Source: Victivallales bacterium (GTDB taxonomy: Bacteria; Verrucomicrobiota; Lentisphaeria; Oligosphaerales; Oligosphaeraceae). Taken from it: a DNA stretch of 51,550 bases. Below the pieces are notes generated by a model, which made no database searches, was not told the DNA's origin, and worked only from the letters and a program-made list of their open reading frames with translations. The position numbers were made by a program, and so were the translations under genes. The stretch is taken from assembly GCA_017535315.1 (NCBI GenBank), contig JAFXUD010000061.1, forward strand, positions 1-51,550, given 5' to 3'. How positions within the stretch are numbered: the first letter of the stretch is position 1; each line of letters begins with the position of its first letter. Below are positions 25,861 to 49,865 of this stretch, one piece after another.

Positions 25861-26745
25861 TTATTTGGATTTAAAGAATCTTTGGAAGAGGTCGAGGAGG
25901 GTTCCGTTGTATTCGGCGGTGGCGTTATCGCAGATACCCTGTTGGTTTCCGCCGCAGTAGAAGACCGTCACCTTGCTGTCCTTCTCGATGAATTCCGCAT
26001 CGGATGCATTGATTTCATAGACGGATGGGTGCTTGCGAGGGTAGGGGCGGTGGCCATAGTCGGGGAAGAGGATGGGGCGCGTGCCTTCCTCCCAGTTAAC
26101 GAGGTCCTTGGAGCGCGCGATGCAGGTGTCATAGTTCATGGCGCGGGTTTCCTCGTTGATGAACTCGTTGACGTAAGTGATGTAGAAAAAGCCATCCAGG
26201 TAGTAGAGAGCGGGGCCCCCGACGTATTTCTTGTCGCCATAAATGGGCTTGTCAAGCAGTTTCCAGTGGACGAGGTCGGTGGATTCAAGGAAACGGAAGG
26301 TGAAGGGGGGGTAGCACTTGTCATCGGTTTCGAAGAGCATGATATAGCGTTTGCCGTCAAAGGCAATGGCGTTGTTAAAGACGCGCCCCTGATCATAGTG
26401 GAAAATATGTACGGGCTTGCTCCAGTGGCGAAGGTCCTTTGAGCAGGTCATGGCGATGGTGTCGCCTCTCCAGGTGGCGTTGTTGCCGACGTAGGTGCCA
26501 TAGCAGTAGCATGTCCCGTTGGCGACGTAGGCGTAGATGAAGTAGTGCTCATCGAGGATATGGGCAATTTCCTTGCCTGTTTTGCGTTCTACGATGACGG
26601 CGTGATCTGGTTTCCCCTTGGGCTGTGCGCCATTGATGGCTGAGACATTGAAGAGGCAGTAGTCCTTGCCTTTGAAGGCAAAGGGCGTCGTCTCGCCAAT
26701 GTGGTGCTTGAAGTGACAGATATTCTGCCAGATATTGCGGTCCAT
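25861..26745 (-). CDS. Five-bladed beta-propeller glycosidase-like protein (GH43/GH117-like)
   Basis: A 294-residue protein with repeated propeller-blade motifs: TCSKDLRHWSKPVHI, FLESTDLVHWKLLDK and IARSKDLVNWEEGTR, each with the S-x-D-x-x-x-W pattern common to GH32/43/68/117/130 clans. No signal peptide, so it acts in the cytoplasm on imported oligosaccharides, or on a small glycoside. The exact GH family and substrate are uncertain. GAGG precedes the ATG. It leads the operon with the Gfo/Idh and UxaC genes, so release of a uronate-containing sugar is a fair guess. The gap to the DUF1573 gene upstream is very small. Confidence 0.6.
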   Translation of the reverse strand: MDRNIWQNICHFKHHIGETTPFAFKGKDYCLFNVSAINGAQPKGKPDHAVIVERKTGKEIAHILDEHYFIYAYVANGTCYCYGTYVGNNATWRGDTIAMTCSKDLRHWSKPVHIFHYDQGRVFNNAIAFDGKRYIMLFETDDKCYPPFTFRFLESTDLVHWKLLDKPIYGDKKYVGGPALYYLDGFFYITYVNEFINEETRAMNYDTCIARSKDLVNWEEGTRPILFPDYGHRPYPRKHPSVYEINASDAEFIEKDSKVTVFYCGGNQQGICDNATAEYNGTLLDLFQRFFKSK

Positions 26746-27948
26746 TTATTTAACCTCGAAATAAAAAAAGCCAAATGGTTTATTTTTGTATTGAAATATA
26801 GCTCGGAATTCGGCAGACTCGTTTTTCAAAAACTGTGGTTCCAACATGAAATGTGCTTTGATACCGTCTGTATCAGGAAGTAAGGTGATTTTCACTCCTG
26901 CTGGGAGAGTTTGTGTGGAAATATCCTTGATAAACGCCAGCCAGGATTCTGGTTTGTCTAAAGGACGTACCTTTTCCTCATCGTCGCGAACAGGAAGATT
27001 TGCGATTGGAATTGTTGGTTTATTTTGTCTGCGAAAGGACCTGCGATCATGCACATTGGATTGAAAAGAACGGAGAGTTATTGGAACGTCGAACTCAAGT
27101 GTGTCATCTTGAATTTTTTCTCGCTTGACGCTCTTGTTTTTCATCAGCAAGACAAAATGGACACCTTGGGGTTTGCCTAAGACCACGACTTGGAGAGGAC
27201 CGTAGTTTGGGATTCCTTCGACGCCAATTTCGAGTATCTCCTTGATGACATTAATGGGGAAAGGGGATTTTGGGGTAATTTCCAGGAGAAAATCCTGTGG
27301 TGAGCTTTGCGTGATGGCCAGATTGAAGAATCTATTGTTTTCTGGTGCTTTCAAGGCCAGTTTTTCCTGTGGGAAAACTGATTTGATATGGATAGACCTT
27401 TTCCAGGACGATACGTCTCCAATGAACTCTCCCAGGTCGATGACTTGAGCTGGCTCGAAGGAGAACATATTTTTCACCGTGCCCATTACTGATGCAAAGG
27501 TGGGAGGAAAATCTTCTGTCCTTACGATTATTTTTCTTTCAAAATCATTGTCGTCGTCTTTTTGTAGAATTTTGGCGTCAAGGGTAAAATTAAGTTTCAA
27601 GGTATTTCCTGGTGACAGAAGGATGTCATTATAGGTGTCGAGTTTCAGACAAGAGCAGTTGCCGCGGATGGAAACGATTTTTACTGGCTTGTCAGAGATG
27701 TTTTTCAACGTGCCTGACAAAGGAAGAACTTCTCTGTCCATGATGGTTATTTTTTTCAGGGCATCTCCCTCCAGCAAGGTCAACGGATAAATGGCAGGGT
27801 CGGGATGCGTTTGGAGGAGGTTTTCCAGTTTGTTCGATTGTTTAGGGTGTGCCATATTCTCTTCCTCATTTTGTGAAAACAAGGTAGGAAAGAAGAGAAA
27901 AAGACTGACAACGCAAAGATGCAAGCTAAAGTGAGTAGATGTATGCAT
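26746..27948 (-). CDS. Secreted DUF1573-domain protein
   Basis: A 400-residue exported protein. The start at 27948 gives a signal peptide (hydrophobic LHLCVVSLFLFFPTLFSQ). An in-frame ATG at 28065 would overlap the giant gene by 98 bp and bury the signal peptide, so it is rejected. Residues about 55-160 match DUF1573 (LSGTLKNISDKPVKIVSIRG then NCSCLKLD, the CxC site); the rest is beta-rich with no family I recognise. DUF1573 is an Ig-like fold of unknown function found in secreted proteins of Bacteroidetes and PVC bacteria. It starts 20 bp after the giant gene's stop, so it is in the same operon. Confidence 0.72.
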   Translation of the reverse strand: MHTSTHFSLHLCVVSLFLFFPTLFSQNEEENMAHPKQSNKLENLLQTHPDPAIYPLTLLEGDALKKITIMDREVLPLSGTLKNISDKPVKIVSIRGNCSCLKLDTYNDILLSPGNTLKLNFTLDAKILQKDDDNDFERKIIVRTEDFPPTFASVMGTVKNMFSFEPAQVIDLGEFIGDVSSWKRSIHIKSVFPQEKLALKAPENNRFFNLAITQSSPQDFLLEITPKSPFPINVIKEILEIGVEGIPNYGPLQVVVLGKPQGVHFVLLMKNKSVKREKIQDDTLEFDVPITLRSFQSNVHDRRSFRRQNKPTIPIANLPVRDDEEKVRPLDKPESWLAFIKDISTQTLPAGVKITLLPDTDGIKAHFMLEPQFLKNESAEFRAIFQYKNKPFGFFYFEVK

Positions 27949-27967
27949 ATTATTTGTGTTTGGATTG

Positions 27968-30900
27968 TTATTTTGCTTTTTTGTAGATGAAAACACCCTT
28001 GGACGGAGGAGGCAGTTCTTCTTCGACATGTGAGAAAGAACCGTTTTCAAAAGTCCACAATTCAAGGTCTGTTGTGTCTGTCGGAACAGCTCCCATCGTC
28101 CATCCTTCTAGAATTTCTTTTTCATCATAAACTTGGACAGGTGTTCCACTGAATGAGAGGGTGAATTCATCAGAATTGGATGGAATATAAAGCCAGTAGG
28201 CTTGTCCAGCGAGCAGCTTCTTGGAGATGACGTAGGTCTTCGCCTGGTCATCAAATGTAAACATGGTCGGAAGGGGATTGATTGTCTGGGCTGCAATGGC
28301 CATGTTGTGGGGAACAGCGATGAGATTCCAGCCTTGAGACAGCAAATAATCCTTGTCATTTGCGTCCGTGCTATAGGTGGTGGTGACAGTTCCTATGGTA
28401 TTTTCAATGCGGTTAATGGGGCTTTCCGTGTAAAAGACGGTATTGCCATTGGAATCATTGCCGCAAAGCGCAAGCGCTGAGAAGAACCATGGAGTGGATT
28501 GGTCGAGTGCATCGAATGTTGTGGAGGTGTTTTCCATGTATTTGCAGAACAGTTTTCCGTTGTCCAGCCGTTGGTAGAAAATGTAAGCAGGGGCTGCGGA
28601 TGATTCAACTTGGAGGGATTCGCCATTGGGTAGCAAATTCAAAGGTGTTTCTTTGAATTGTTCTTCTGGGAAGAGACGGACGGTGTAGATTTTGTCATTG
28701 AAGGTAAAACAACCATAAGCGACGGCGATGTTCTCGTCAATGCTGCAACACGCAACTGTTGTTGGGACAAAGATACCAGAAATCTCAACAGATGTTCTGG
28801 ATATTTCGTTGGTGGCATCATCGCAGACGAGGAGAACTAGTTCTCCTGTAAAGAGACCATTTTTCTGGTTGACAATCATCGTGGTGGAGTTGTCTATGCA
28901 GAGGCCCGATGTAAGTGGCGTGAAGTAGTCCCCCGTTTCATCAACATGTTCCCGCATGGGGATTGCGGAGGGAACGATGATGTTTGCGTCATCGACATAA
29001 TCCGAGACAAAGAGGAACTCCTCTGTACTAGTGTGCTGGGAAATTGACAGGCCAGGCGTATAGATGGTACCGCAGGGAAGGAGTGTCATGGTTTGCCCCA
29101 TGTTATCCGTGTAAAGATTCTTAATCAAACCGCATCCTGAAACCCAGGTACTGACGGCGCCGTCTGTGCGTTTACTTGGACGAACGACATCCAGCGCTCC
29201 TCTAATACTTCCTTCATATCCTTCTGTTTGATTTCCAAAGAGGGGGAGGAAATAGGGGAGTTTGGCGAAGCTGGTGCTCTCATCGCCATCCCAATAGAGG
29301 CAAGATTGGGTTGTGAAGTTGCCAGTTCCATAGAGATTGATGTCAATTTGCGCTGTAGCATCCTCTGAGATGTGTATTTGCATCCAGCCGAGAGAAATGC
29401 CTTGTACATCCGTATCCTGGCGGATGACGACATTGTAGGTGCCTGCATATTGTTCCGCATCAACATTGGTGACTGGCAGGAGTTCTCCTGTGTAGATGTG
29501 GTTTTGTTCTGTTTGGATGATGACTGCGCCTGAACCATCTTCTAGAATGGTTGCGGAGAGGACAGAGAAATCTGAAAGAGTGCAGTTCAAGGAAAGAGTG
29601 TAGTTGGAGGCGTTGAACTCCCAGTAGGGTACATTTGCGGTGGCGATGGTGTCCTGAGTATTGAAGGAAAGTGTCAGCGAACCATTGTCGTTTTTGGAGA
29701 TAAACAGCGTGCCGTCGATGCTGGTAGTAGTGCTATTTTCACGCATGAGAGGGGCGATGAAGGCTTTTGTTTCGACGGCCTCAAAGGTTGTTGCCTCAAT
29801 AGATATTGCGAGGGTGATGGTATCAGTGGTTTTACTGCCTTGTTTGAGGGAAAGCGTTACCAGCGCTTCTGAGAGTATTTCCGTTGGAGAACCATGGATT
29901 CGAATATAGGTTTTATCGTCGGGGATTTCATAATTCAGGCCATTTGGGAGGGTGGTTTTGGTGATTTTCATGCTGGCAGTCGGGCAGACAGGAATAAGGA
30001 TGCTGTTGTAAAGTCCTTTGTAGAGGGTTAAGCTGGTTTGCTCTAACCTTGGAAGGAATAGGGGAGTGGTGGCAAGTTTAACGGTGGTGGCGCTGTTTCC
30101 ACTGATGAGGCAGGTGTTGTCCTCTTTTTGGCGGATTTCCACGATGAAATCCTTGGTTCCGCTCCAGGAAGTCGAGGCAGGAATGTTTAGTTGGACGGAA
30201 ATGGCACTGGTAGTTGTTTCCTTGTTATTCCATGAGAAGTCTGTCCATTCACATGCCTCAAAATAGTCGGTGGAAGCAGGGGATTCCGTCGAAGGTCTGA
30301 CGCGGTACTGGAAGACCAGTTCCTTGTCATTTTGCTGTTGCAAATCGAGCCAGACGGGGATTTCCACGCTTTGGCTGGTATGGGGAACTGCAATTACTGT
30401 TTCAGGGAGGGAGACATAGGCCGTGATATCTCCTTCCATTAAATAGTAAATGTCGATTTCCGCCATTGATTTTTGATTTTGAACCTCTATGCAGAGCCAG
30501 GCAGAGGTGTTTTCCTGCGTTTTTGGGGTAAACACAAAGGGGATGCCCATTAGCAGCGAACCTGCCTCCAAGACAAAACGGTTTTCTCCCAGGAGGTCAT
30601 AGACGGAAACGGTGGCGGTGGCTTCTATATCGGCATCATCGGATTGGATGTAGAAGAACCAGGAGGTGCCGTCTATCGGGAAGTTGGCCCAGTAGGTGTC
30701 ATTGTGGTCTCCTACATAGGCGGTTGCGGACGAGTCATCAGGGTCGAGGATTTCCAGAGATGTCGTGCGGTCGTTGACGGATTCAGAATAATCGACATCA
30801 AACAGATCATTGAAAAGGGTAAGGGCGTCCAACGTCTCTTCCACGGTAATGTTCACATACATATCATCTGGTTCAGGATTTGGATAGTAGGGGAAGCGTC

Positions 30901-33900
30901 CGACTGGCTCCAGTTCATAGCTGCCCCGCGTATTGGCCTTGACTCTGCAAAAGACAAGGGTTGGATAGGGGATGGCGCCCTTTTCCCAGCCAGTTTTTGC
31001 AACGTTATGCAGGGAGAGTTTTTCCTGCCATTCGCGGTTGTCCTTGAGTTTTGCTTTCATTATGTCGTCAGTGATTGAATTTGTCGCGCGATAGCCGTCG
31101 GTCTCTGTAAGCAGGCATGGCCCTGTCGAATCATCGGCGGAACGAAGGCGGAAGTCAAAGTTGATGGCATAGTAGCTGGAGATGGCCTCTGCAAAATCAG
31201 GCGTAGAAAGGACGTTCTGCTCCAGGCAGACGCATTTAGGGCACCAAGTGACGGCACCGAAGTAGGCTAGGACGGGGGTATTTGTCTTGTAAGCCGCTGC
31301 AAGAGCCGCCTCCGTATCCATGGTCCATTTGCCTTTCTGCGCGCCTGTCCAGGCGGGATTGGTGATGTATCCAACTTCGGGGGTGGATTTTGTCTCGTGG
31401 ATGCGCATGGAGAAGGTGGCGGCATTTGTGGTAGCGGTGCCTTTTGCCACTATTCGAATGAAGAAAAGAGCTGTTTTATTTTCTGAAGTGGGGATGTCAA
31501 AGTGGAAATTGCCGCTGAGATAGTCATATGTCTTGTCCTTGAAGGTGGCGATGGCTGGTTCGACAGGTTTATTTGTTTTGGTGTTGCTTCCAAATACGTC
31601 AATGGTATAGGTGAGATTGCCAGAGGCTGCGCTGAGGTCTCTGGCATACATACTGAAGCGCTGTCCCGTGCGTCCTGTGAATTTGTACCATTTTTCCGTG
31701 CTTTTTCCCTTGAAGGTTACGGGCCCCATCTTCACAATGGCATCCGCTGATTTTGCTGGCTTGTAAGTCGTGTTGTAAATGGTTCCGAGGTCGGTTGCGT
31801 TTTCGTAGCCAGTCGGCCCTGTGGCGGGGGGTGTGAGCGTTTCCCAGGCCTGGTTTGGGAAGCAGGCCTTTATCTGCTTGCTGAAGGTGGTAGGGCTCCA
31901 GGATTTCTCTGCACCATTGGCGATGCCCATGAAGGTTTTGTCAGCCTGGTAGCTTCCAATAAAGTACTCGTTAAGCTTGGTACTTTTGAGGGGATCAACC
32001 TGATCGGGCTTAAAGGCATTTGAATCGACAGTCGTACAATTTGCCCCCTCTTTAACCTTGAATAGATAAACATGCGGGGCTCCGCTGTAGTAGGCATCGT
32101 ATCCTGACCGATATGCCATGTTGGTGTACAAGAGAAGGTTGTTGTTGCGGGTGGCGCAGACGACGATTTTGTTTTCCTTGACAAAATTCTTAAACGTAGA
32201 GGTATTCAGGATTAGTTTGTCAAAGTTATCGCAGTGAGCACACGGATCCATGGAGGCAACCAGGAGAAGCGGTCTATTGTTAGCCAAAGCATAGCCTTTT
32301 GCCTTGGCAATGCCATCATAGTTGAAATAGACGCCAAGCCAGTCGCTTTCGTTGCCTGGATCAACAGGGTCATCGGGATCGTCAGGGTCATCGGGATTGT
32401 CAGGATTGTCGGGATCGTCAGGATCGTCAGGATCGTCGGGATCATCGGGATCATCGGGGGTAATGCCTGAATCGATACTCTTCCAATATTGATTTGGGAA
32501 ACAGGCCTTTATCTGCTTGATAAAGGTGGAGGGACTCCAGGATTTCTCTGCACCATTGGCGATGCCCATGAAGGTCCTGTCAGCCTGGTAGCTTCCAATG
32601 AAGTACTCGTTAAGGTTGGTACTCTTGAGGGGATCGACCTGATCGGGCTTAAAGGCATTTGAATCGACGGTCGTGTAATTTGCCCCCGCTTTGACCTTGA
32701 ACAGATAGACATGCGGGGCCCCACTGAAGTAGGCGTTGTATCCTGATCGATATGCCATGTTGGTGTACAAAAGAAGGTTGTTGTCGCGTGTGGCGCAGAC
32801 GACGATTTTGTTTTCCTTGACAAAATTCTTAAACGTGGAGGTATTCAGGATTAGTTTGTCAAAGTTGTCGCAATGCGAACAAGGATCCATGGATGCAATC
32901 AGGAGAAGCGGTCTTTTGTTGGCCAGGGCATAGCGTTTTGCATTGGCAATGTCTTTATAGCCGAAATAGACGCCAAGCCACTCGCTTTCTTTGCCTGGAT
33001 CAATCGGGTCCTCGGGATCTTCGGGGTCCTCGGGATCATCAGGGTCTTCAGGGTACTCAGGATCTTCAGGGTCTTCGGGATCCTCGGGGTCTTCGGGATC
33101 CTCGGGGTCGTCAATAATTCCTGAATCAATGCTTTCCCAATACTTATTTGGAAAACATGCTTTTATCTGATTGATGAATGTGGAGGGATTCCAGGCACTC
33201 TCTGCACCATTGGCGATGCCCATGAAGGTTCTGTCGGCCTGATAGCTTCCAATGAAGTACTCGTTAAGCTTGGTACTCTTAAGGGGATCGACTTGGTCAG
33301 GCTTAAAGGCATTTGAATCGACAGTCGTGCAATTTGCCCCCGCTTTGACCTTGAACAGGTAAACATGCGGAGCCCCGCTGAAGTAGGCATCGTATCCTGA
33401 CCGATATGCCATATTAGTGTACAGAAGAAGGTTGTTGTTGCGTGTGGAGCAAACGACGATTTGGTTTTCCTTGACAAAATTCTTAAACGTGGAAGTATCC
33501 ATGATTCGTTCATCAAAGTTGTCGCAGTGCGAACATGGATCCATGGATGCAATCAAAAGAAGCGGTCTATTGTTGGCGAGGGCATAGGCTTTGGCCTTGG
33601 CAATGTCTTTATAGTCGAAATAGACACCTAGCCAGTCGCTATTGTTACCAGGATCATCAGGATCTTCGGGATCCTCGGGATCCTCGGGATCTTCGGGATC
33701 CTCGGGATCCTCGGGATCGTCCTCGGTACGGGGGGTCCATTTTACCCAATCCAGCCAGACGCGATTAAAGCATTGGATGATTGCATTATATTCGGCAAGA
33801 TCTTCCTTGTACCATTCAGTGTCACCGTCATAATCGGCTTTTACTGGTTTTTCAGGACCATCTGCGATATAGGAGCCTGAATCGGAATCACAGTATGGCA

Positions 33901-34555
33901 GATCTTTTTCAAAAACGATCATAATTTCGTGATTATCTGTTCCCTTGTATCTCCCTTGGGTGGCCTTTCCTTTTGGAATGGTAATTTCCGCGCGGTTCTG
34001 ATGCTCATACTCGCTTGTATAAGACCAGTCATCCATAGGATCCGAATAACCAGTTGCTTCAAAATCGGTATTTGCGTCAAAGAAATCGTCATCCCTATCT
34101 ACATAGACCTTAATGCCATCTCCCTGTTCAGAACATGTCTTGTAGAAGAAGGAGAAGGTACCAGGGCCATTGACTTTGAAGACCAGGCGTGCTTCCTGGG
34201 CATCGCTGCTGGCCGAGAGCGATGTCGGAAGATCGGAACGCAGGCAGGAACCTCCGTTTACCGGGTAGGTGGAATACTTTGAGTTGTCGCTAGAAGAGGA
34301 CTGAACCACCCAACCACCGCTGCTTTCAGAATACTTGGGGATTCCATTGTTATACACATAATTGTATTCATACCAGTCATCGTCATTATACTTTTTTGTA
34401 GAATAAACCCGTTTGCAAAAGCTTTCCAAGGTGATTCCTGTCTGTCCACTTAAATCCAGTGCGTTTATGATATCGTTCTTGGTCACTCCCAAAAGGTTGC
34501 TTTCGCACATTAAAAGGAAAAGAAAAAAGCATCCAGCAAAAAAGCTTTTTTTCAT
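27968..34555 (-). CDS. Giant secreted protein with multiple thioredoxin-like domains and Asp-Pro-Glu linkers
   Basis: 2195 residues. Signal peptide 1-23 (KKSFFAGCFFLFLLM). Residues about 24-270 are a module shared with the protein at 38443. Three near-identical thioredoxin-like domains follow (about 303-478, 520-698, 733-905), with redox motifs CSHC, CSHC and CAHC, each preceded by a linker of repeated DPE or DPD. A prepeptidase-like beta domain (about 915-1045) leads to a fourth thioredoxin-like domain with WCPKC near 1105. The rest is beta-rich, ending in a GWNLIAVP...WTFENGSF module. A start at 34675 also exists with a strong AAGGAGG overlapping the foldase stop; it would add 40 residues before the signal peptide. 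I prefer 34555 because the paralogue begins directly with its signal peptide. Confidence 0.75.
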   Translation of the reverse strand: MKKSFFAGCFFLFLLMCESNLLGVTKNDIINALDLSGQTGITLESFCKRVYSTKKYNDDDWYEYNYVYNNGIPKYSESSGGWVVQSSSSDNSKYSTYPVNGGSCLRSDLPTSLSASSDAQEARLVFKVNGPGTFSFFYKTCSEQGDGIKVYVDRDDDFFDANTDFEATGYSDPMDDWSYTSEYEHQNRAEITIPKGKATQGRYKGTDNHEIMIVFEKDLPYCDSDSGSYIADGPEKPVKADYDGDTEWYKEDLAEYNAIIQCFNRVWLDWVKWTPRTEDDPEDPEDPEDPEDPEDPEDPDDPGNNSDWLGVYFDYKDIAKAKAYALANNRPLLLIASMDPCSHCDNFDERIMDTSTFKNFVKENQIVVCSTRNNNLLLYTNMAYRSGYDAYFSGAPHVYLFKVKAGANCTTVDSNAFKPDQVDPLKSTKLNEYFIGSYQADRTFMGIANGAESAWNPSTFINQIKACFPNKYWESIDSGIIDDPEDPEDPEDPEDPEDPEYPEDPDDPEDPEDPEDPIDPGKESEWLGVYFGYKDIANAKRYALANKRPLLLIASMDPCSHCDNFDKLILNTSTFKNFVKENKIVVCATRDNNLLLYTNMAYRSGYNAYFSGAPHVYLFKVKAGANYTTVDSNAFKPDQVDPLKSTNLNEYFIGSYQADRTFMGIANGAEKSWSPSTFIKQIKACFPNQYWKSIDSGITPDDPDDPDDPDDPDDPDNPDNPDDPDDPDDPVDPGNESDWLGVYFNYDGIAKAKGYALANNRPLLLVASMDPCAHCDNFDKLILNTSTFKNFVKENKIVVCATRNNNLLLYTNMAYRSGYDAYYSGAPHVYLFKVKEGANCTTVDSNAFKPDQVDPLKSTKLNEYFIGSYQADKTFMGIANGAEKSWSPTTFSKQIKACFPNQAWETLTPPATGPTGYENATDLGTIYNTTYKPAKSADAIVKMGPVTFKGKSTEKWYKFTGRTGQRFSMYARDLSAASGNLTYTIDVFGSNTKTNKPVEPAIATFKDKTYDYLSGNFHFDIPTSENKTALFFIRIVAKGTATTNAATFSMRIHETKSTPEVGYITNPAWTGAQKGKWTMDTEAALAAAYKTNTPVLAYFGAVTWCPKCVCLEQNVLSTPDFAEAISSYYAINFDFRLRSADDSTGPCLLTETDGYRATNSITDDIMKAKLKDNREWQEKLSLHNVAKTGWEKGAIPYPTLVFCRVKANTRGSYELEPVGRFPYYPNPEPDDMYVNITVEETLDALTLFNDLFDVDYSESVNDRTTSLEILDPDDSSATAYVGDHNDTYWANFPIDGTSWFFYIQSDDADIEATATVSVYDLLGENRFVLEAGSLLMGIPFVFTPKTQENTSAWLCIEVQNQKSMAEIDIYYLMEGDITAYVSLPETVIAVPHTSQSVEIPVWLDLQQQNDKELVFQYRVRPSTESPASTDYFEACEWTDFSWNNKETTTSAISVQLNIPASTSWSGTKDFIVEIRQKEDNTCLISGNSATTVKLATTPLFLPRLEQTSLTLYKGLYNSILIPVCPTASMKITKTTLPNGLNYEIPDDKTYIRIHGSPTEILSEALVTLSLKQGSKTTDTITLAISIEATTFEAVETKAFIAPLMRENSTTTSIDGTLFISKNDNGSLTLSFNTQDTIATANVPYWEFNASNYTLSLNCTLSDFSVLSATILEDGSGAVIIQTEQNHIYTGELLPVTNVDAEQYAGTYNVVIRQDTDVQGISLGWMQIHISEDATAQIDINLYGTGNFTTQSCLYWDGDESTSFAKLPYFLPLFGNQTEGYEGSIRGALDVVRPSKRTDGAVSTWVSGCGLIKNLYTDNMGQTMTLLPCGTIYTPGLSISQHTSTEEFLFVSDYVDDANIIVPSAIPMREHVDETGDYFTPLTSGLCIDNSTTMIVNQKNGLFTGELVLLVCDDATNEISRTSVEISGIFVPTTVACCSIDENIAVAYGCFTFNDKIYTVRLFPEEQFKETPLNLLPNGESLQVESSAAPAYIFYQRLDNGKLFCKYMENTSTTFDALDQSTPWFFSALALCGNDSNGNTVFYTESPINRIENTIGTVTTTYSTDANDKDYLLSQGWNLIAVPHNMAIAAQTINPLPTMFTFDDQAKTYVISKKLLAGQAYWLYIPSNSDEFTLSFSGTPVQVYDEKEILEGWTMGAVPTDTTDLELWTFENGSFSHVEEELPPPSKGVFIYKKAK
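31840..33722. repeat. Three in-frame tandem repeats of about 640-650 bp
   Basis: DNA repeats at about 33120-33646, 32462-32995 and 31840-32356 encode the three thioredoxin-like domains. Separators at 33651-33722, 32995-33115 and 32356-32460 are runs of GAT-CCC-GAG-type codons (DPE/DPD). Long stretches are identical at the DNA level between copies, including synonymous positions, which indicates recent duplication or gene conversion. Confidence 0.9.
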
Positions 34556-34680
34556 TGTTTTCCATCCTGATAAAGTGGTGGTGTTATGCATATTGGTGTA
34601 CTCCGCGGGAAGGGGTTTTGGAGCTTTTGTTTCTGACAGCATCTGGTATTTCAATTTATGGACGAGTTGAGTCATATCGG

Positions 34681-35829
34681 TTATTCCTCCTTCTTGGTCT
34701 CGCTCTGCGATGAATTGGGCGATGAAGATGAAACCATGGGCTTTTTCCAGAGCCCCTCAGGAAAAAGAGGGGTTTTCACGGCATAGTCCAAAGACATCTT
34801 ATAGATATATTCATCAATGGCGGCTTTTTGTTTGAGCGGGGTCAGCTTCTCTCGAATAGCTTCCTTATCCTTGAGATTCTCTGTCTCCCCCAACTTGCCG
34901 CATAGAATCTGGGCAACACGCAGTTTTTCAGGTGCATCAGCCGTTTCTGGAGGGATGGAGCGTAGGACTTTCATGATACGGTAGGCGGAAGATGTCTCCA
35001 GCATGGGGGTGACATCGCCGACTTTCCAATTGAATTCTTTGATTTCATTGACTTCGGCCAATTCTTCACGGGTGAAATCATACTTCAATTCTCCACCCCA
35101 TTCGGCTTCTACGCCCTCTGAATATTCTTTGGCGAGTTTTTTGAAACCCTCGTTTGTTTGCAAGTCAGGATCCTGAGCAAGCTTTTGCATCGCTTCCCTT
35201 CGCTCAACGTTTAAGCCGTCTATGCCTTGCTTGACAGCTTTCTTGTAGCGAATGTAGAGATCAATTTCCTCGTCTGTTAACTGAATGTTTTCAAATAGTT
35301 TTTCACTGAGGTACATGACATTGATGAGCTCATCAAAGGATACATTGAGAAGATTGGGTGAAACCATCTCAAAGGAAGCCATGTATTGAGACAAGGATTT
35401 GTATTTGCTTTGTTTATCCGCCTTGAGATTAGTCTCTATGTCTGATTCAATCTTCTTGCGTGCCTCTGTGTCAGGGATTAATTCAAGCTTTTTAGCCTCC
35501 ATGACGAACATTCGTCGGGCAACCAGTTTCTGCATTATCGTGCGTATAGCGTCTCCTGTAGAAGTCTTGTTTGCACTTTCGCTGGTATTGAGAGATTCTA
35601 CAAGTGGTTGGATATGCGGGTAGAGTTCCCGCCAACTGGCGGTTTTGCCGTCAATCTCCAGCACGATGGAATCAGGCTGGAGTTTTTCAATTGTGTTTTT
35701 TAAATCCGCTTCTGTTGTTTGATGATGGGGTTCTGATATAGGGGCGACGGCGGGCTCTGTCGATTGTGTATGTACAAGAGAGAGTGGAAAAGCGATGCTT
35801 ACAAGGAGTAAAGCGTGAATATATTTCAT
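34681..35829 (-). CDS. Secreted parvulin-type peptidylprolyl isomerase (SurA/PrsA-like foldase)
   Basis: A 382-residue exported chaperone. Signal peptide 1-21 (HALLLVSIAFPLSLVHTQS). Residues about 55-190 are a helical SurA-N-like chaperone region. Residues about 200-300 form the parvulin domain, with AEWGGELKYDF and WKVGDVTPMLETSSAYRIMKVL matching the GGDLG and G-x-I-S-P-V motifs. It acts in the periplasm. It sits immediately upstream of the giant secreted protein and its last codons supply a Shine-Dalgarno for that reading frame, so it is probably a dedicated foldase for it. Promoter at 35880-35907. Confidence 0.85.
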   Translation of the reverse strand: MKYIHALLLVSIAFPLSLVHTQSTEPAVAPISEPHHQTTEADLKNTIEKLQPDSIVLEIDGKTASWRELYPHIQPLVESLNTSESANKTSTGDAIRTIMQKLVARRMFVMEAKKLELIPDTEARKKIESDIETNLKADKQSKYKSLSQYMASFEMVSPNLLNVSFDELINVMYLSEKLFENIQLTDEEIDLYIRYKKAVKQGIDGLNVERREAMQKLAQDPDLQTNEGFKKLAKEYSEGVEAEWGGELKYDFTREELAEVNEIKEFNWKVGDVTPMLETSSAYRIMKVLRSIPPETADAPEKLRVAQILCGKLGETENLKDKEAIREKLTPLKQKAAIDEYIYKMSLDYAVKTPLFPEGLWKKPMVSSSSPNSSQSETKKEE

Positions 35830-35879
35830 AGCCGTGGAGGTATTGAGACAGAGTATTGAACAATCTTTACAATATTAAT

Positions 35880-35907
35880 AATATAAGAACCAAGAGGAAA
35901 AAAACAA
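35880..35907 (-). promoter_or_regulatory. Candidate promoter of the foldase-giant-DUF1573 operon
   Basis: Minus strand TTGTTT (35902-35907), 16-nt spacer, TATATT (35880-35885); leader of about 45 nt to the ATG at 35829. Confidence 0.45.
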
Positions 35908-35969
35908 GTAGTCGAGTAGTCTTTTTTTTGTTTTTGTTATTTTTTTTCCTGCTTCATGTTTTACGTTCT

Positions 35970-36028
35970 TTATGAGCAACTTCATAACGCTTCCCATTGT
36001 GTTTTTTCCGATTTTAAGTTGCTCATAA
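35970..36028. promoter_or_regulatory. 13-bp perfect inverted repeat between divergent operons
   Basis: TTATGAGCAACTT (35970-35982) and AAGTTGCTCATAA (36016-36028) with 33 nt between. It lies between the foldase promoter and the tandem promoters of the 36411 gene. It may be an operator for both directions or a terminator-like fold. Confidence 0.5.
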
Positions 36029-36029
36029 C

Positions 36030-36206
36030 AAAAAAACGCAAAAAAATATCAAAAAAAGTCTTTTTTTTGCAAAAACGTATTTGACAATGTGGAAATGATG
36101 CTTAAATTATTTACAGTTTTGTCTATGAATATCAAAAAAATGCAAAAAAATGGAATTTTTTGAGGTTTTTTGTTTGACATAGTGCAAAATGTGTTTATCT
36201 TATAAT
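36030..36206 (+). promoter_or_regulatory. Two tandem promoters, each behind phased A-tracts
   Basis: P1: TTGACA (36081-36086), 16 nt, TAAATT (36103-36108). P2: TTGACA (36174-36179), 16 nt, TATCTT (36196-36201). A7 tracts centred near 36033, 36043 and 36054 precede P1; A or T tracts centred near 36137, 36147, 36158 and 36168 precede P2. Spacing of 10-11 bp gives intrinsic curvature. This is the strongest promoter region in the window. Confidence 0.6.
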
Positions 36207-36209
36207 AAT

Positions 36210-36410
36210 TCTAAAAAAAGGACGCATAGTTTGAACATAAGCTTCTTTAACCGTTTGACAGTTGAAGCTGTCTTGCGAAAGGAGGATGCAAACACATAGT
36301 CAGGTAGCTCATTTTTTCAGGTTCAGGTTTTTTGAAAATTTCGTGTAAACAATAAATGCTACCCCGAAAGGGGTGGATGAGAGAGTACAAGTAAAACAAA
36401 AGGAACAAAA
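36210..36410 (+). promoter_or_regulatory. Long structured 5' leader of the small secreted protein
   Basis: About 200 nt between P2 and the ATG. It contains a hairpin GACAG/CTGTC (36257-36272), a site AAAGGAGG directly followed by ATG and a 20-codon frame (36285-36347, spacing too short to be efficient), and a hairpin CCCC-GAAA-GGGG (36362-36373) shortly before the true ribosome-binding site AAAGGAA. Confidence 0.45.
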
Positions 36411-37304
36411 ATGAAAAAGCTCATTGCTGCAATCGTGATTGCCTCCATCGGTGCTGCTTTCGCAGATCCGTACTATGTGTATGACTACAAGGCCTCCATC
36501 AAGCGCCTTGACATCAGCGCCAAGTATGTGAGCAAAACCGCCGACGTTACCCAGAAATACAGTGTCAAGAGCGACACCATCCAGGGCTATGTCACTGTGC
36601 CCGTCTGCAAAAACTGCACTGGAACCCTTGATACCAGCATTGGCATTAAGGATGACGGCTATGCCTATCTGACCATGAAAGGCAACAGCAAGAATGTCAG
36701 CGGGAAGGAATACGCTGTCCTGAAGGCCCCCATCAAGGCCTCTATCGGTGTGTTCGGTGGCGAACAGTACATGAATGGTAAGATTGTTGATGACAAAAAG
36801 GTCAACAAGGCTTGGATGTCCTTGGATTTCCCGCTGTCCGTCGCACAGTTTGACACTGCGCTCCTCGTTGCGAAGAAAGATGTCAGCGCTGGCGTTCCTC
36901 TGGCCTTCTTGGGCCTCACCAACCTCGGTGAAAATGCTGACCGCGTGGATGTCCAGAACACTGGTTTTGGTACTGCCAAAGTTCAGAAGAGCAGCGTCTT
37001 TGATTTCTGCGAAGGCGAGACCACCAATTCCTGCCTCTCCGTTGCCTCCATCAGTGGTACCCTGGTTGGCTATCCCCTCTACATGGGTGCTTGCCTCCAC
37101 AGACCGATGTGGGATCTCTGCAATGTCAGTGCTGCTGGCGAGGTTCCGGATGCCGTTATCTGCGGTTCCTGGTCTCTTAAGTTCAACAAGGCTTTGACGG
37201 ACAAATATGCAGAAAAGGGCGAGGCCGCCATTCTGGATAAGTTCAAAACCTCGAAGTATGTTGAAATCGATGCATCTGGTGCTTTCGTTTCTTCTTCCAA
37301 ATAA
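36411..37304 (+). CDS. Probably abundant secreted protein of unknown function
   Basis: A 297-residue protein with a clear signal peptide (KKLIAAIVIASIGAAFA, cleavage before Asp19). I do not recognise the family. The mature part is rich in Lys, Asp, Gly and beta-strand patterns and has several Cys (CKNCTG near 67-70, FCEGETTNSCLS, ACLHRP, LCNVS, VICGS), enough for disulfides or metal binding. Tandem promoters with curved DNA, a structured leader, a strong terminator and C-ending codons that differ from the AT-richer neighbours all suggest very high expression. A surface-layer or envelope structural protein, or a heavily secreted factor, is inferred. Confidence 0.8.
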   Translation: MKKLIAAIVIASIGAAFADPYYVYDYKASIKRLDISAKYVSKTADVTQKYSVKSDTIQGYVTVPVCKNCTGTLDTSIGIKDDGYAYLTMKGNSKNVSGKEYAVLKAPIKASIGVFGGEQYMNGKIVDDKKVNKAWMSLDFPLSVAQFDTALLVAKKDVSAGVPLAFLGLTNLGENADRVDVQNTGFGTAKVQKSSVFDFCEGETTNSCLSVASISGTLVGYPLYMGACLHRPMWDLCNVSAAGEVPDAVICGSWSLKFNKALTDKYAEKGEAAILDKFKTSKYVEIDASGAFVSSSK

Positions 37305-37340
37305 TCAAGTAAGTGCTACGATTTCTTGATTAACGCACCA

Positions 37341-37401
37341 AGACTGATAGTCTAGACTATCAGTCTAAAAGAGGGGTCAATTGCATTGGCCCCTCTTTTT
37401 T
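37341..37401 (+). terminator. 26-bp perfect palindrome followed by an intrinsic terminator
   Basis: 37341-37366 is a perfect 26-bp palindrome centred on TCTAGA. Next comes AAGAGGGGTCAA (37369-37380), loop TTGCA, TTGGCCCCTCTT (37386-37397), then a run of T (to 37401). This is a 12-bp stem with one G-U pair, a classic rho-independent terminator. The palindrome would protect the 3' end. Confidence 0.88.
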
Positions 37402-37411
37402 GATTATGCTA

Positions 37412-37587
37412 TGTTCCCCAAGAGAGTCGTTTTTTAAAGGCCGTGGTGCGGTCAGTGCATGAAGTGCACGACAATCGAAGACCAATGCTTCGCGCCCGTT
37501 AGAGGCTGCCGCATTGGGGAGCCTCCAGATAATTCGCGCCTGTGGGGGCACAACAAAAAACTATTCTGTTTCCTACCTTGGGGAACA
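37412..37587. other. Possible structured RNA or repeat element of about 176 bp
   Basis: Nested long-range complementarity: TGTTCCCCAAG (37412-37422) with CTTGGGGAACA (37577-37587), and GTTTTTT (37429-37435) with AAAAAAC (37555-37561). Inside are hairpins GTGCA/TGCAC near 37456 and GAGGCT/AGCCTC near 37502-37524. The overall rod shape with closed ends recalls small RNAs such as 6S RNA, but I see no conserved 6S motif and the strand is unknown. No credible protein. This fills most of the gap 37402-37636. Confidence 0.3.
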
Positions 37588-37636
37588 GAGCGTTCAACTT
37601 AATTGTATTAACTCTAGCTGAAGAACTGGATGTAAT

Positions 37637-38398
37637 ATGTTTTTGCACAAAAACAATTTGTCTTTTGTTTTCCTTTTTGGAATTATCATTCTTGCATTGC
37701 TTTTTCTTCTGAATAAACAGAATCACGAATCTGAAGTAGTGAAAGGAGGTAGTGATGAGCCGATTCAGAATACCAAAACCGAATCTCAGGAGAATACTGT
37801 GCTAGGAAGCAATACCGAGATAAACCAGGAGAAACCAAGGGGAGAACGTGATGCGGGAATAACTTATGAGGAAAAGAAACGCCAGAAGCTTGAAAGCCTG
37901 CAGGCTTTGCTTGATGACGAGGAAAAACATGATGAGGCTTTGAAGCTGGCTTTGTCAATGGTGGATAAGGGGGATGCAGAACAAAAACTTGCGGCAATAG
38001 AGACATTCAACTGGATTGGTGGCCATGAGGCCAAAATGGCTCTAGTGGCTCTTCTGGATTATGGTGGTATTGTCAGTGAGAATGCTACCAGTTCTTTGAT
38101 ACATCTTTTCCAGGAAGATGCTCAGGATTCGGAAAGGACATTTGATGAAGAGGCCTTTATCGCAGCGTTGGATAAAATGGAGGAAACGGAAAGAGACGCT
38201 TTGTTTGTCATGTTGAATGGATATCCAGTGGAAACAGCTGCGCCTGTCCTGATTAATCTAATGGATTCTCAGAATGAAGCTCTCCGCAATCAGGTTTTTG
38301 AAACATTTGAGAGCATGGCGGAGGGGACGGAGATTACAAGCAAAGCAGATGCGGAAGAATGGCTTAAGAAATTTCTTGCGGAGAGCAAAGAGGATTAA
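37637..38398 (+). CDS. Membrane-anchored HEAT-like helical repeat protein
   Basis: A 253-residue protein. One N-terminal transmembrane segment (about 9-26, SFVFLFGIIILALLFLL) is followed by a charged, disordered tether (27-85) and a C-terminal helical region with HEAT-type repeats (LKLALSMVDKGDAEQKLAA, AKMALVALLDYGG, APVLINLMDSQNEALRNQV). The helical part would lie outside the membrane, in the periplasm. Such scaffolds bind other proteins; no function can be assigned. It lies 44 bp upstream of the 693-residue secreted protein on the same strand and is probably co-transcribed with it. Confidence 0.68.
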   Translation: MFLHKNNLSFVFLFGIIILALLFLLNKQNHESEVVKGGSDEPIQNTKTESQENTVLGSNTEINQEKPRGERDAGITYEEKKRQKLESLQALLDDEEKHDEALKLALSMVDKGDAEQKLAAIETFNWIGGHEAKMALVALLDYGGIVSENATSSLIHLFQEDAQDSERTFDEEAFIAALDKMEETERDALFVMLNGYPVETAAPVLINLMDSQNEALRNQVFETFESMAEGTEITSKADAEEWLKKFLAESKED

Positions 38399-38442
38399 AG
38401 CAGGGACTTTTAGATTGGGTATAGAGATTTCAGGGGTAAAAA

Positions 38443-40524
38443 ATGACTAGACGCCAGATAGTAGCATTGTTGCTTTCCATCTCCATTTATTCTCTATACG
38501 CGGTTAATATCAATGACGTATCTGAGGCGTTGGATTTGACGGGACAGTCAGGGGTCGAACTGGTCAGTTTCAGCAAGCGCGTGTATAATGTGACTTACGA
38601 CAACGAGTGGGAGGAGTATGACTATGTTTATGATGCCAATGAGGAGCCAACCTATAAGGATACAGACAATACAGGATGGGTTGTGCAGTCTTCAGATAAG
38701 GAGCATAGCAAATATTCCACCTATCCCATAAAGGGGAGTTCCTGCCTGCGCTCGGGCTTGCCTACAGAGCTAAAGAAGGGTAGCGATGCCCAGGAGGCAC
38801 GCCTTGTCTTTAGAGTTTATGGTCCAGGTAGATTCTCTTTCTTTTATAAAACCTCCTGTGATGAGTCAGATCAGCTTGTGGTATATGTCGATGGAGAACT
38901 GTCCTTTTTCAGTGAATCAGGCTATGGGGAGAATAGCGAGTATAATTGGAGCTATCAAGTCGATGACCAAACAGGAGAGGAGATAGAGGTTGAAAACCAT
39001 GCTGAAATCAATCTGGATGGGGGAAAGGCGACATCTGGACCCTATGAGGATACCTTTTATCACGAGATAGTGATTGTCTTTGAAAAGGATTTGCCAAGGA
39101 CCGACTGGGATGGAAACTACCTTCCTGATGGTCCAGAAAAACCAGACAAAAGCTGGTATGAAGATGATGATGATGGATATAAGGAGGCGTTAGCTGACTA
39201 CAATGCGCAAATGAAACTTTTCTTCAACTCCGTTTGGATTGATTGGGTGCAATGGACTCCGTTAGCCATTACTCTTGAATTGAATGATATTAAAGAGCCT
39301 CTCTATGATGAAGATGGGGAAATAATGTATGATGCGGATGGGAATGTCATGTATAAGGAAATACTGGACGAGGAGGGAAACTACCTGGATGAGGCAAAAA
39401 TAGTGTTGTCTTCAGATGCCCCTGACGTGGGGTATTCTGTGAGATACACGCTTGACGGGAGCGACCCCACAAGTAGTTCGACAGAGTTTAATTATGAAGA
39501 GGACACCTATCTGACACTGACGCAATCTTGCACGCTGAAGGCGGCCATCTTCGTTGGTGAAATAATCGATACAACGGTTGGTATTGTTTCCAAAGAGGTG
39601 ACTATCAAGGCAACGGCGCCATCCCTGGAGCAGGATGCCGAGCATTCCACGGATACTGCTTTTGTGTTCAAGGCGACGAATCAATATGCGGACAACATTA
39701 TCGTCTATACGATGGACGGGACTGAGCCGATGGAGAAAAGCACAGTTTATGATGCGGAAACAGGTATTGTCATCGAAAATACATGCACAGTTAAGGCTAG
39801 ATGCGTGCGTGAAGGTGTTCTTGCCAGTGAGGTAGTCTCAAAGACCGTGGAAAGACTGCCCGCACCGATTTATCGACTTTTAGACGCTGACGGCGTGGAG
39901 GAGCCGAATGGCGTGACAACGGGAAGCGAGCTGACGCTTGAAGCGGACAATTCTTCTGGAACTCTTAAATATGGCACTTCTGAAACAGATATCACGGAAG
40001 ACTTCCCTGATGATGGGCTTCTGGTCGGTATTGGAAAGACATATTATCTGCGAAATGTCGAAGACGGCAAACTCTCCAGCTTGATTGTCTGCGTGCAGGT
40101 GAAGAAGGCCGATACGACAATTGTATTTGGCGAGGGTGACTATGCGTTGGAACTGGGCTGGAATCTGGTGAGTTTCCCGATTGACATGACATCCACTAGC
40201 AGTCAGGCTCTGCTAAAAAAGTGGACTTTCTTTGGATACAATTCCGATGTGCGATGCTATCAACATATGACGACGATTAAGCCTGGTTGCGGCTACTGGG
40301 TGTTTCGGAAAACTGCGGACGAAACTGGCGGCGTCGAATTGAACGGATGCGTGGCCACCGAAACGGCAACGGGAGGTGCTGGTTGGAATCTTTTAGGCCT
40401 TGTGAAGGGGCAGGACTCCTTTGGGAGCAATGAGGTTTGGAGCTTCTCGAATGGTGCTTTTTGTCCACTGAAGAGCGATGAAAAGCCGAGTCAGTGGAAA
40501 GGGTATATGGTGAGATTCCAGTAA
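38443..40524 (+). CDS. Secreted protein, paralogue of the giant protein's terminal modules
   Basis: A 693-residue exported protein. Signal peptide 1-21 (IVALLLSISIYSLYA). Residues about 22-275 align with the N-terminal module of the giant protein (NDxxxALDLxGQxG, GWVVQSS, KYSTYP, SDAQEARLVF, GPGxFSFFYKT, VWxDWVxWTP). Two chitobiase-type C-terminal/Fn3-like domains follow (VRYTLDGSDPTSSS near 325, IIVYTMDGTEP near 420). The last 150 residues repeat the GWNLVSFP...WSFSNGAF module, which may anchor or sort the protein. AGGGG precedes the ATG. A repeat element begins right after the stop. Confidence 0.78.
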   Translation: MTRRQIVALLLSISIYSLYAVNINDVSEALDLTGQSGVELVSFSKRVYNVTYDNEWEEYDYVYDANEEPTYKDTDNTGWVVQSSDKEHSKYSTYPIKGSSCLRSGLPTELKKGSDAQEARLVFRVYGPGRFSFFYKTSCDESDQLVVYVDGELSFFSESGYGENSEYNWSYQVDDQTGEEIEVENHAEINLDGGKATSGPYEDTFYHEIVIVFEKDLPRTDWDGNYLPDGPEKPDKSWYEDDDDGYKEALADYNAQMKLFFNSVWIDWVQWTPLAITLELNDIKEPLYDEDGEIMYDADGNVMYKEILDEEGNYLDEAKIVLSSDAPDVGYSVRYTLDGSDPTSSSTEFNYEEDTYLTLTQSCTLKAAIFVGEIIDTTVGIVSKEVTIKATAPSLEQDAEHSTDTAFVFKATNQYADNIIVYTMDGTEPMEKSTVYDAETGIVIENTCTVKARCVREGVLASEVVSKTVERLPAPIYRLLDADGVEEPNGVTTGSELTLEADNSSGTLKYGTSETDITEDFPDDGLLVGIGKTYYLRNVEDGKLSSLIVCVQVKKADTTIVFGEGDYALELGWNLVSFPIDMTSTSSQALLKKWTFFGYNSDVRCYQHMTTIKPGCGYWVFRKTADETGGVELNGCVATETATGGAGWNLLGLVKGQDSFGSNEVWSFSNGAFCPLKSDEKPSQWKGYMVRFQ

Positions 40525-40757
40525 AGGCAATTAGCAATTTGCAATTATTAAGAAGGGTAAGCCGCGTAGCGGCGAAAGAGCATAGCCGTGGGTGGCGCGA
40601 AGCCGCGAAAGCGGCGAAGCGAAACCCACGGGCAAGCAATACCCCAGTTCCTTTTGCGCCTTGCCGCGTAGCGAAGCGGCAAGGCGCAGAAAATCTGGCA
40701 TCCTGTGCCTATTGACATCCTCCTGCTGAATAGTTACATTGATAATTGCTAATTAAA
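40525..40757. repeat. Hairpin-rich repeat (core related to the MITE-like elements)
   Basis: Starts right after a stop codon. AATTAGCAATTTGCAATTAT (40527-40546) and ATAATTGCTAATT (40743-40755) form inverted ends made of the same heptamer as positions 1-182. The GC-rich core (40561-40690) shares the CGTGGGT/ACCCACG and TGCGCCTTGCCGC/GCGGCAAGGCGCA hairpins with the MITE-like elements but lacks their GGGAATTATATAC ends. The remainder to 40924 holds the rpsU promoter and leader. Confidence 0.75.
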
Positions 40758-40812
40758 GCGGTGAGGGATGACGCTTTTTTTCGCATTTTCAAAGTTTTTG
40801 CGACATTGCGAG

Positions 40813-40840
40813 TTGCATAGAAAGAAAATGATGCTATATT
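40813..40840 (+). promoter_or_regulatory. Promoter of rpsU
   Basis: TTGCAT (40813-40818), 16-nt spacer ending in TGC (extended -10), TATATT (40835-40840). The leader of about 80 nt ends with AAAGGGGGTG before the start codon. Confidence 0.55.
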
Positions 40841-40924
40841 AAGTCAGTTTTTCACTGAACCTGAAAACTACCTGCATAAACCATAAACCATCCAAGCCTG
40901 TCGAAAGGGGGTGAATAAATAAAA

Positions 40925-41086
40925 ATGACTGACATCAAATGCCGCAAAGGTGAACCGATTGAACGCGCCCTCAGACGTCTGAAAAAGAAGCTGGACAAAG
41001 AGGGAACGTTGAAGGAACTGCGCAATCGTAGGCACTACGAGAAGCCCAGCGAGGTCAAAAGGCGTGAGAGTAAACGCTCACACTAA
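40925..41086 (+). CDS. rpsU: 30S ribosomal protein S21
   Basis: A 53-residue, strongly basic protein. It begins [20 protein letters not shown] and continues [23 protein letters not shown], the diagnostic S21 pattern: conserved GEP-IE-ALRR-K and R-R-(H/Y)-YEKPS. S21 sits on the platform of the 30S subunit and helps mRNA selection near the anti-Shine-Dalgarno. The start has a purine-rich AAAGGGGGTG about 12 nt upstream. It is a monocistronic unit with its own promoter and terminator. Confidence 0.95.
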
Positions 41087-41113
41087 TTGATGTCGCGTTC
41101 CGTAAATACACAG

Positions 41114-41147
41114 AAGACCGCCTGTTTTTGCAGGTGGTCTTTTTTTT
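41114..41147 (+). terminator. Rho-independent terminator of rpsU
   Basis: GACCGCCTG (41116-41124), loop TTTTTG, CAGGTGGTC (41131-41139) then eight T. The stem is 9 bp with one G-U pair, extended by two A-T pairs. Confidence 0.9.
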
Positions 41148-41177
41148 GTTGTTGTAATCGTACTTTGCTAATGCGAC

Positions 41178-41205
41178 TGGAAATTGAGGCTGGTTAACGT
41201 ATATT
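41178..41205 (+). promoter_or_regulatory. Candidate promoter of the MetF-MetV/tsaE unit
   Basis: TGGAAA (41178-41183), 16-nt spacer, TATATT (41200-41205). The transcript leader would contain the TCTAGA 9-bp repeats. Confidence 0.4.
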
Positions 41206-41226
41206 ATGAAAGTGGAATAATAAGTG

Positions 41227-41280
41227 CTCTAGAAGCTCTAGAAGTTCTAGAAGCTCTAGAAAATGCTAGAATATCTAGAA
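41227..41280. repeat. Six 9-bp units with TCTAGA in the leader
   Basis: CTCTAGAAG, CTCTAGAAG, TTCTAGAAG, CTCTAGAAA, ATGCTAGAA, TATCTAGAA in tandem, between the promoter and the GGGGGGAG ribosome-binding site of the MetF-MetV gene. Each unit is a partial palindrome, so units can pair with each other. The period equals that of the GGGACGGGA hairpins. Confidence 0.85.
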
Positions 41281-41299
41281 TGGGGGGAGTAAATCAACA

Positions 41300-49512: not shown

Positions 49513-49865
49513 GGGGACGAAATGGTTTCGACTGTCTAGGCAGATCGTAGGTCGCATGCGGAGGATGATCGTTGGCCTCCTTAATCATCGGTCAAAAAAA
49601 TAACTGCGAACAACGAACTCGCACTCGCGGCTTGAACCCGCGACGTCTTTACCTTGATGCCTAATATAGGATAAAGGCGAACGCATTAGGCTGGTTCAAC
49701 GACCGTGCACACGGGTCTGAGAACAAGAACTAACAGAGTGCTGCTTCCGCGGAGGTGTGCGTACACCACCAATCCCGTGGACTAAGACTAAATCGCGTAC
49801 TAAGCATGTAGAAGCCTGCAGGAAGTTTACTCAGGACGCGGGTTCAACTCCCGCCGTCTCCACCA
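49513..49865 (+). ncRNA. ssrA: Transfer-messenger RNA (tmRNA)
   Basis: A 353-nt tmRNA that rescues stalled ribosomes. The acceptor stem GGGGACG (49513-49519) pairs with CGTCTCC (49855-49861), followed by discriminator A and an encoded CCA (49863-49865). The T-arm GGTTCAACTCC precedes the 3' acceptor strand. The tag frame reads GCG AAC AAC GAA CTC GCA CTC GCG GCT TGA, giving the peptide ANNELALAA, which has the LAA ending recognised by ClpXP-type proteases. It is a one-piece, unpermuted form. The 3' end is a common integration site; island-like DNA begins just after it. Confidence 0.96.

Follow-up and report, generated by a model that had tools for sequence, protein, structure and literature searches.

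We identified a conserved gene locus in the Oligosphaeraceae that encodes a parvulin-type peptidyl-prolyl isomerase (PPI), a giant secreted multi-thioredoxin protein, and a DUF1573-like exported protein, accompanied by a HEAT-repeat protein, a Cys-bearing secreted protein (CysP), and, in 15 family loci, a DsbD/CcdA-like membrane protein of ~530 aa (X530). The locus is described here from a 51,550-nucleotide stretch (the window) of a Victivallales gut bacterium (GCA_017535315.1; contig JAFXUD010000061.1), whose genome comprises 4.9 Mb in 96 contigs. We propose, with about an even chance of being right, that its genes form a relay for thiol-disulfide exchange in the envelope, dedicated to that task and linked to protein folding. 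The system is conserved and coherent; its parts are of known kinds and their arrangement is new, neither the assembly nor the pairing of DUF1573 with a membrane protein having been found described in the papers searched. An initial annotation of the window had suggested a secreted redox and foldase system, perhaps acting on host or dietary proteins or on a neighboring Cys-rich secreted protein. Its core idea, a secreted or envelope redox-foldase system, is supported by the conserved gene order and the thioredoxin folds, and its speculation on host and diet is unsupported. The genes of the window locus are as follows.

26746-27948, (-) strand: DUF1573-like exported protein, 400 aa; CxC codons at 27649-27657
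27968-34675 (start ATG at 34675 or 34555), (-) strand: giant multi-thioredoxin protein, 2195-2235 aa; four Thioredoxin_7 domains
34681-35829, (-) strand: PPI, 382 aa; exported parvulin with SurA_N-like and PPIC domains
36411-37304, (+) strand: CysP, secreted, 297 aa; six conserved Cys (C66, C69, C200, C208, C228, and C237)
37637-38398, (+) strand: HEAT-repeat protein, membrane-anchored at its N terminus (PF13646, E = 2e-5, slightly under the cut-off; also assigned by synteny)
38443-40524, (+) strand: exported paralogue, 693 aa; N-terminal domain of the giant type plus CHB_HEX_C/Fn3_assoc and GWN-type modules

Open reading frames and Pfam matches bear out the initial annotation in placing the parvulin, the ~2200-aa giant, and the DUF1573-like protein consecutively on the (-) strand. 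The three-gene unit extends over 26746-35829; the range given originally (31840-35829) takes in the parvulin but leaves out all of the giant beyond its N-terminal ~40%. The annotation had also overlooked the HEAT-repeat protein, the paralogue at 38443-40524, and the DsbD/CcdA-like carrier that relatives encode directly after DUF1573. Its gap of 5 to 125 bp is explained by two plausible start codons of the giant. The open reading frame of 2235 aa begins at ATG 34675, 5 bp past the parvulin stop, with a strong Shine-Dalgarno sequence (AAGGAGGA), and the alternative ATG 34555, which leaves a 125-bp gap, directly precedes a signal-peptide-like sequence (MKKSFFAGCFFLFLL). The PPI matches the PPIC rotamase family (PF00639; E = 6e-7; 30.8 bits, above the curated cut-off of 21.7) and PF13624 (E = 1e-4), and its orthologues adjoin the giant in relatives.

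The sequences themselves show which domains are present, that their active sites are conserved, how the genes are ordered, and that they are distributed together. Among 60 relatives, homologues of the giant occur in 23, of the parvulin in 19, of the DUF1573-like protein in 23, and of CysP in 18, nearly all of them in the Oligosphaeraceae. The PPI-giant-DUF1573 order is found in the window genome and in genomes G028, G026, G008, G015, G012, G011, G020, G018, and G009, and G005 and G003 show it with one or two extra genes inside. G004 carries the PPI and the giant, and its named record L138 places DUF1573 between the giant and X530. The contigs of G024, G006, G016, G017, G023, and G007 end inside the locus and contain the matching parts. 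Nearly all family relatives with long enough contigs share the three-gene order, including Oligosphaera ethanolica, in which CysP, HEAT, PPI, giant, DUF1573, and X530 form one strand-consistent array. This conservation runs counter to the refutation that the initial annotation had set for itself, a gene order shared by no relative. In most genomes, CysP and then HEAT come upstream of the parvulin; both are on the opposite strand in the window, diverging from the parvulin across a 581-bp spacer. Besides O. ethanolica DSM 24202, a member of this Lentisphaerota family from which we take the name Oligosphaeraceae, the metagenome-assembled genomes (MAGs) ADurb.Bin082 and Sandtown carry the locus (L133-L135), and close relatives include goat-rumen and horse-fecal MAGs.

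The giant comprises a signal-peptide-like start, an N-terminal domain, three thioredoxin repeats, a beta-sandwich, a fourth thioredoxin domain, and a long C-terminal region that closes with two GWN-type modules. Four stretches match Pfam Thioredoxin_7 (PF13899; E = 1e-31; 109 bits against a cut-off of 27), and the motifs CSHC, CSHC, CAHC, and WCPKC of the initial annotation are located where expected within them. Repeats 1 to 3 are near-identical (85-88% over 170 aa) and stand on EDP/DDP linkers, as had been claimed for all four domains; the fourth follows the beta-sandwich instead.

33651-33718, (-) strand: EDP linker before repeat 1, a tandem 9/27-bp array
33116-33637, (-) strand: Thioredoxin_7 repeat 1; CSHC codons at 33524-33535
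33004-33109 and 32358-32452, (-) strand: further EDP/DDP linkers, tandem arrays of 9/27 bp
32462-32983, (-) strand: Thioredoxin_7 repeat 2; CSHC codons at 32870-32881; 88% identical to repeat 1
31835-32344, (-) strand: Thioredoxin_7 repeat 3; CAHC codons at 32231-32242; 85% identical to repeat 1; included in the fold model
31154-31327, (-) strand: core of thioredoxin domain 4, WCPKC; C-x-x-C codons at 31232-31243; assigned by Pfam, alignment, and a match to 2ju5

A fold model of 511 residues covering repeat 3 and domain 4 (predicted local distance difference test [pLDDT] score, 83.8) shows the alternating strands and helices of the thioredoxin fold at both CxxC sites. In Foldseek searches, its thioredoxin part matched DsbD-gamma crystal structures (template modeling [TM] score of 0.5-0.6 on the target), and the beta-sandwich flanked by the two thioredoxin-like regions resembled CUB, carbohydrate-binding, and collagen-binding domains. 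Profile and model agree on the fold, and sequence and predicted structure together place a CxxC at the helix start and a cis-Pro at the expected position. In domain 4, WCPxC and the cis-Pro position are invariant in 22 aligned sequences (W385, C386, P387, C389, and P479, alignment numbering). The nearest PDB sequences to the thioredoxin domains are a Chlamydia-type disulfide isomerase (DsbH, 2ju5; E = 8e-8 with domain 4) and the protein disulfide isomerase (PDI)-family protein AGR3; the repeats alone gave weak matches only, and the score against the DsbH NCBIfam equivalog (45.1 bits) falls below the cut-off of 190.

A typical giant of the family combines a single constant WCPxC domain with variable xCxxC repeats, between one and four in number. 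Repeat identity is 46-92% within a genome versus a mean of 25% between genomes, a pattern indicating that the copies have been repeatedly made or homogenized, as expected of a multi-headed catalyst with an adjustable number of heads. A scan of genome contigs with a single repeat as the query returned no matches because the repeat diverges too fast. The window genome also encodes a second, shorter giant (G000:C49:224073-228245; ~1430 aa, with one xCxxC and one WCPHC thioredoxin), which stands alone on another contig, without a parvulin or DUF1573 gene.

The DUF1573-like protein carries CSC at residues 98 to 100, and this CxC is invariant in 20 aligned orthologues. Replacement of one Cys by selenocysteine (Sec) is usual at catalytic redox sites. 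Published tables list selenoproteins of both families, DUF1573 with UGC and Thioredoxin_7 with CxxU (PMC9312934). On these grounds, the CxC is plausibly redox active. Among the papers searched, three mention DUF1573: two selenoprotein reviews, in which it is no more than a table entry, and a paper on Bacteroidetes and iron.

X530, which usually directly follows DUF1573, contains two invariant extracytoplasmic CxxC motifs in thioredoxin-like domains; in its polytopic domain, the cysteines of NPC and CTG are likewise invariant. When X530 was compared by profile with 21 DsbD proteins from the same order, both membrane cysteines fell in register (E = 1.3e-5; probability, 80.6%); a first comparison with 11 X530 sequences had given a probability of 6%, which rose to 81% once distant X530 sequences were added. 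A PDB sequence search with X530 yielded chance matches only. The position held by X530 in relatives is taken in the window by a GH43/GH130-like gene (25861-26745, [-] strand) that abuts the DUF1573 gene (0 bp); having no evident signal peptide and not being seen there in relatives, it was rejected as a locus member. The X530 of the window genome is 51% identical to the Oligosphaera protein and adjoins IMP-cyclohydrolase-like and ceramidase-like genes. For the window genome, the named record that comes closest is L132, from a goat-rumen "Victivallales" MAG, with an X530 of 82% identity; there, too, X530 has no DUF1573 gene within the 6.5 kb of the record, so that its relocation may be genus-wide.

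The association of the two genes extends beyond the family. X530 proteins are widespread: a scan for them retained 80 of 569 confirmed loci, and DUF1573 lay within 4 kb of X530 in 14 of the 67 loci outside the Oligosphaeraceae, on the same strand in 12 of the 14. None was found in the 361 kb further out, and the probability of all 14 lying near X530 by chance over 764 kb is ~1e-4. Those of the neighboring DUF1573 proteins that were tested are bona fide PF07610 members, two of them above the cut-off of the OS_HP2 selenoprotein family. Such pairs, general and uncharacterized, are seen among others in Poribacteria, Atribacterota, and WOR-3 (L146-L205).

CysP begins with a signal-peptide-like sequence and has no Pfam or NCBIfam match. 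Across 18 aligned sequences, C66, C69, C200, C228, and C237 are invariant and C208 is nearly so. A profile search detected CysP in 11 of 289 genomes of the phylum, 10 of the 11 in the Oligosphaeraceae, as one copy per genome and at the locus where the contig allows. Its codon adaptation index (CAI) of 0.772 ranks 26th of 191 and falls in the range of ribosomal proteins (0.71-0.79), compared with 0.585-0.689 for the PPI, giant, HEAT, paralogue, and X530 genes. Two further features lie next to the gene.

36174-36201, (+) strand: promoter-like site 5' of CysP, TTGACA-16-TATCTT (consensus match only)
37367-37399, (+) strand: strong intrinsic terminator-like hairpin 3' of CysP, 15 pairs

By this correlative evidence, CysP looks like an abundant product and the other locus genes like low-abundance machinery. 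CysP is predicted to be mostly beta, with three conserved Cys pairs as candidates. The suggestion that the neighboring Cys-bearing secreted protein is the client gains support from its strict co-location, single copy, six conserved Cys, and ribosomal-like codon adaptation, and remains a proposal.

DsbD/CcdA proteins take electrons from thioredoxin in the cytoplasm and pass them to thioredoxin-fold proteins outside it; the latter reduce or isomerize disulfides. Parvulins accelerate prolyl isomerization in exported proteins. Combined with the anatomy of the locus, this knowledge suggests a path from X530 through the DUF1573-like protein and/or the giant to CysP. X530, whose transmembrane domain is DsbD/CcdA-like and whose two thioredoxin-like domains are extracytoplasmic, would carry reducing equivalents out of the cytoplasm and hand electrons on to the CxC of the DUF1573-like protein and/or to the giant. 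The latter would be a multi-headed disulfide reductase or isomerase (PDI- or DsbC-like in effect), its heads being the constant WCPxC domain and, on flexible linkers, between one and four of the variable xCxxC domains. CysP would be the main client, its disulfides being reduced or isomerized by the giant and the DUF1573-like protein, and the parvulin would isomerize prolines of the same clients. The membrane-anchored HEAT-repeat protein is probably a scaffold, and the paralogues sharing the N-terminal domain may be further clients or partners. Which way the electrons flow, which protein is the client, how abundant the products are, and where in the cell they act are what we infer from the sequences. 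More tentatively, and at clearly less than even chances, DUF1573 and X530-type proteins may form a widespread, hitherto undescribed extracytoplasmic thiol relay across many bacterial phyla, which the Oligosphaeraceae expanded into a multi-thioredoxin foldase machine for one abundant Cys-bearing exported protein.

Several observations weigh against this relay. The X530 of the window genome lies off the locus, on contig 22 (G000:C22:35842-37332), and matches neither PF02683 (DsbD_TM) nor PF13386 (DsbD_2), its transport function being read from a remote match; the same genome encodes a separate, classical DsbD on contig 68. The DUF1573 identity of the initial annotation holds as regards the CxC, and the PF07610 score lies below the cut-off (E = 1e-4; 22.3 bits against 26.1), so that the protein is DUF1573-like only. 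Some giants, found beside a second giant, lack the CxxC of WCPxC. The CysP model is of moderate confidence (pLDDT, 69.8) and has no confident fold match: Foldseek returned none at E <= 0.001, the best being porin-like barrels with TM scores of <0.25, and no fold is claimed. A VKOR-type oxidase, sought as an oxidizing partner in 29 family genomes, was not found, with no search made for DsbA or DsbB.

Other functions can be considered. The relay might serve during oxidative stress to reduce envelope proteins that have become sulfenylated or disulfide-bonded, with CysP as no specific client; we regard such repair or defense as unlikely. The cultured member, O. ethanolica, is an anaerobe, which would fit, and CcdA is reportedly part of the pneumococcal Etrx-MsrAB2 system. 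The component logic is the same there, surface thioredoxins (PMC3914529) being combined with a CcdA-like carrier. However, no Msr, peroxiredoxin, or catalase-like gene was recognized at the loci examined, and the strict linkage to CysP and the parvulin would be left unexplained. Slightly less likely still is a surface structure or adhesin locus, in which the giant, itself structural, and its paralogues would be cell-surface building blocks and the thioredoxins would form or shuffle cross-links between surface subunits, CysP among them. The acidic linkers, the homogenized repeats, the sandwich resembling CUB and carbohydrate-binding modules, and the N-terminal domain shared by the giant and the neighboring paralogue, both of which end in GWN-type modules (identified by eye), point in that direction, whereas the conserved catalytic CxxC and cis-Pro, and codon adaptation of the giant too low for an abundant structural protein, argue against it.

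CcdA-like carriers that have a thioredoxin of their own commonly work in the maturation of cytochrome c, and X530 has a weak ArsG-family match, both of which would suit thioredoxins that keep the Cys of a heme- or metal-binding client reduced (CcmG/ResA- or Scs-like). We consider this improbable: the CxxC of CysP (CKNCT) is not followed by His in the aligned relatives and is thus not the CxxCH of cytochrome c, and no heme lyase, cytochrome, or metal gene was recognized at the loci. The action on host or dietary proteins suggested originally, with the giant being released to reduce their disulfides, seems very improbable. The proteins do look exported and close relatives come from goat rumen and horse feces, but the locus also occurs in O. 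ethanolica and in relatives with record names that give no hint of an animal host, no digestive or host-directed enzyme is conserved at it, and a membrane electron source implies a function close to the cell.

The 693-aa paralogue, whose N-terminal domain is 53% identical to that of the giant, lies at or close to the locus in several relatives. Its C-terminal modules share GWN motifs (GWNLIAVP and GWNLVSFP) with those of the giant, possibly a surface-anchoring domain. Positions 26000-42000 of the window have a G+C content of 0.43-0.50 between flanks of ~0.55-0.62 (locus, 0.466 versus 0.555); horizontal acquisition, which the low G+C would suggest, was rejected as a general property, as most relatives show little difference. 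A transfer-messenger RNA (tmRNA) gene at 49513-49865 ([+] strand; tag ANNELALAA) was the sole Rfam match.

If the envelope relay is correct, DUF1573, a widespread uncharacterized family with selenoprotein members, would gain a function as the partner of a DsbD-like carrier, and there would be a bacterial example of a multi-thioredoxin, PDI-like foldase accompanied by a prolyl isomerase of its own and by a candidate client. O. ethanolica, a cultured isolate carrying the full array, makes the system testable.

Compared with known systems, X530 resembles the DsbD/CcdA transporters and their DsbC, ScsC, and Etrx partners in having a transmembrane domain with two reactive Cys and thioredoxin-like domains and in being paired with extracytoplasmic CxxC proteins. 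It differs in its two N-terminal thioredoxin-like domains, in having NPC and CTG in place of the DsbD motifs, and in its partners, which are the multi-thioredoxin giant and DUF1573. DUF1573/OS_HP2 (seleno)proteins share an Ig-like domain with CxC (UGC in the Sec form; PMC9312934), whereas the window member is divergent, under the Pfam cut-off, and without a visible Sec. DsbH (2ju5) and PDI-family AGR are the nearest sequence matches of the giant's thioredoxin domains; DsbH, however, is a single domain of ~150 aa, whereas the giant, far below its NCBIfam cut-off, has four domains in ~2200 aa together with other modules. PDI likewise has several thioredoxin domains in one chain, and many sites in the giants are of its CxHC type, but the giants differ in domain order, variable copy number (1-4), and recently duplicated or homogenized repeats. 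The PPI has the SurA_N-like and single PPIC domains of PrsA/SurA parvulins and, unlike these, is a family-specific orthologue tied to the locus. By analogy, the locus would join two modes of action, that of a DsbD-DsbC or CcdA-thioredoxin relay and that of a multi-domain foldase resembling PDI.

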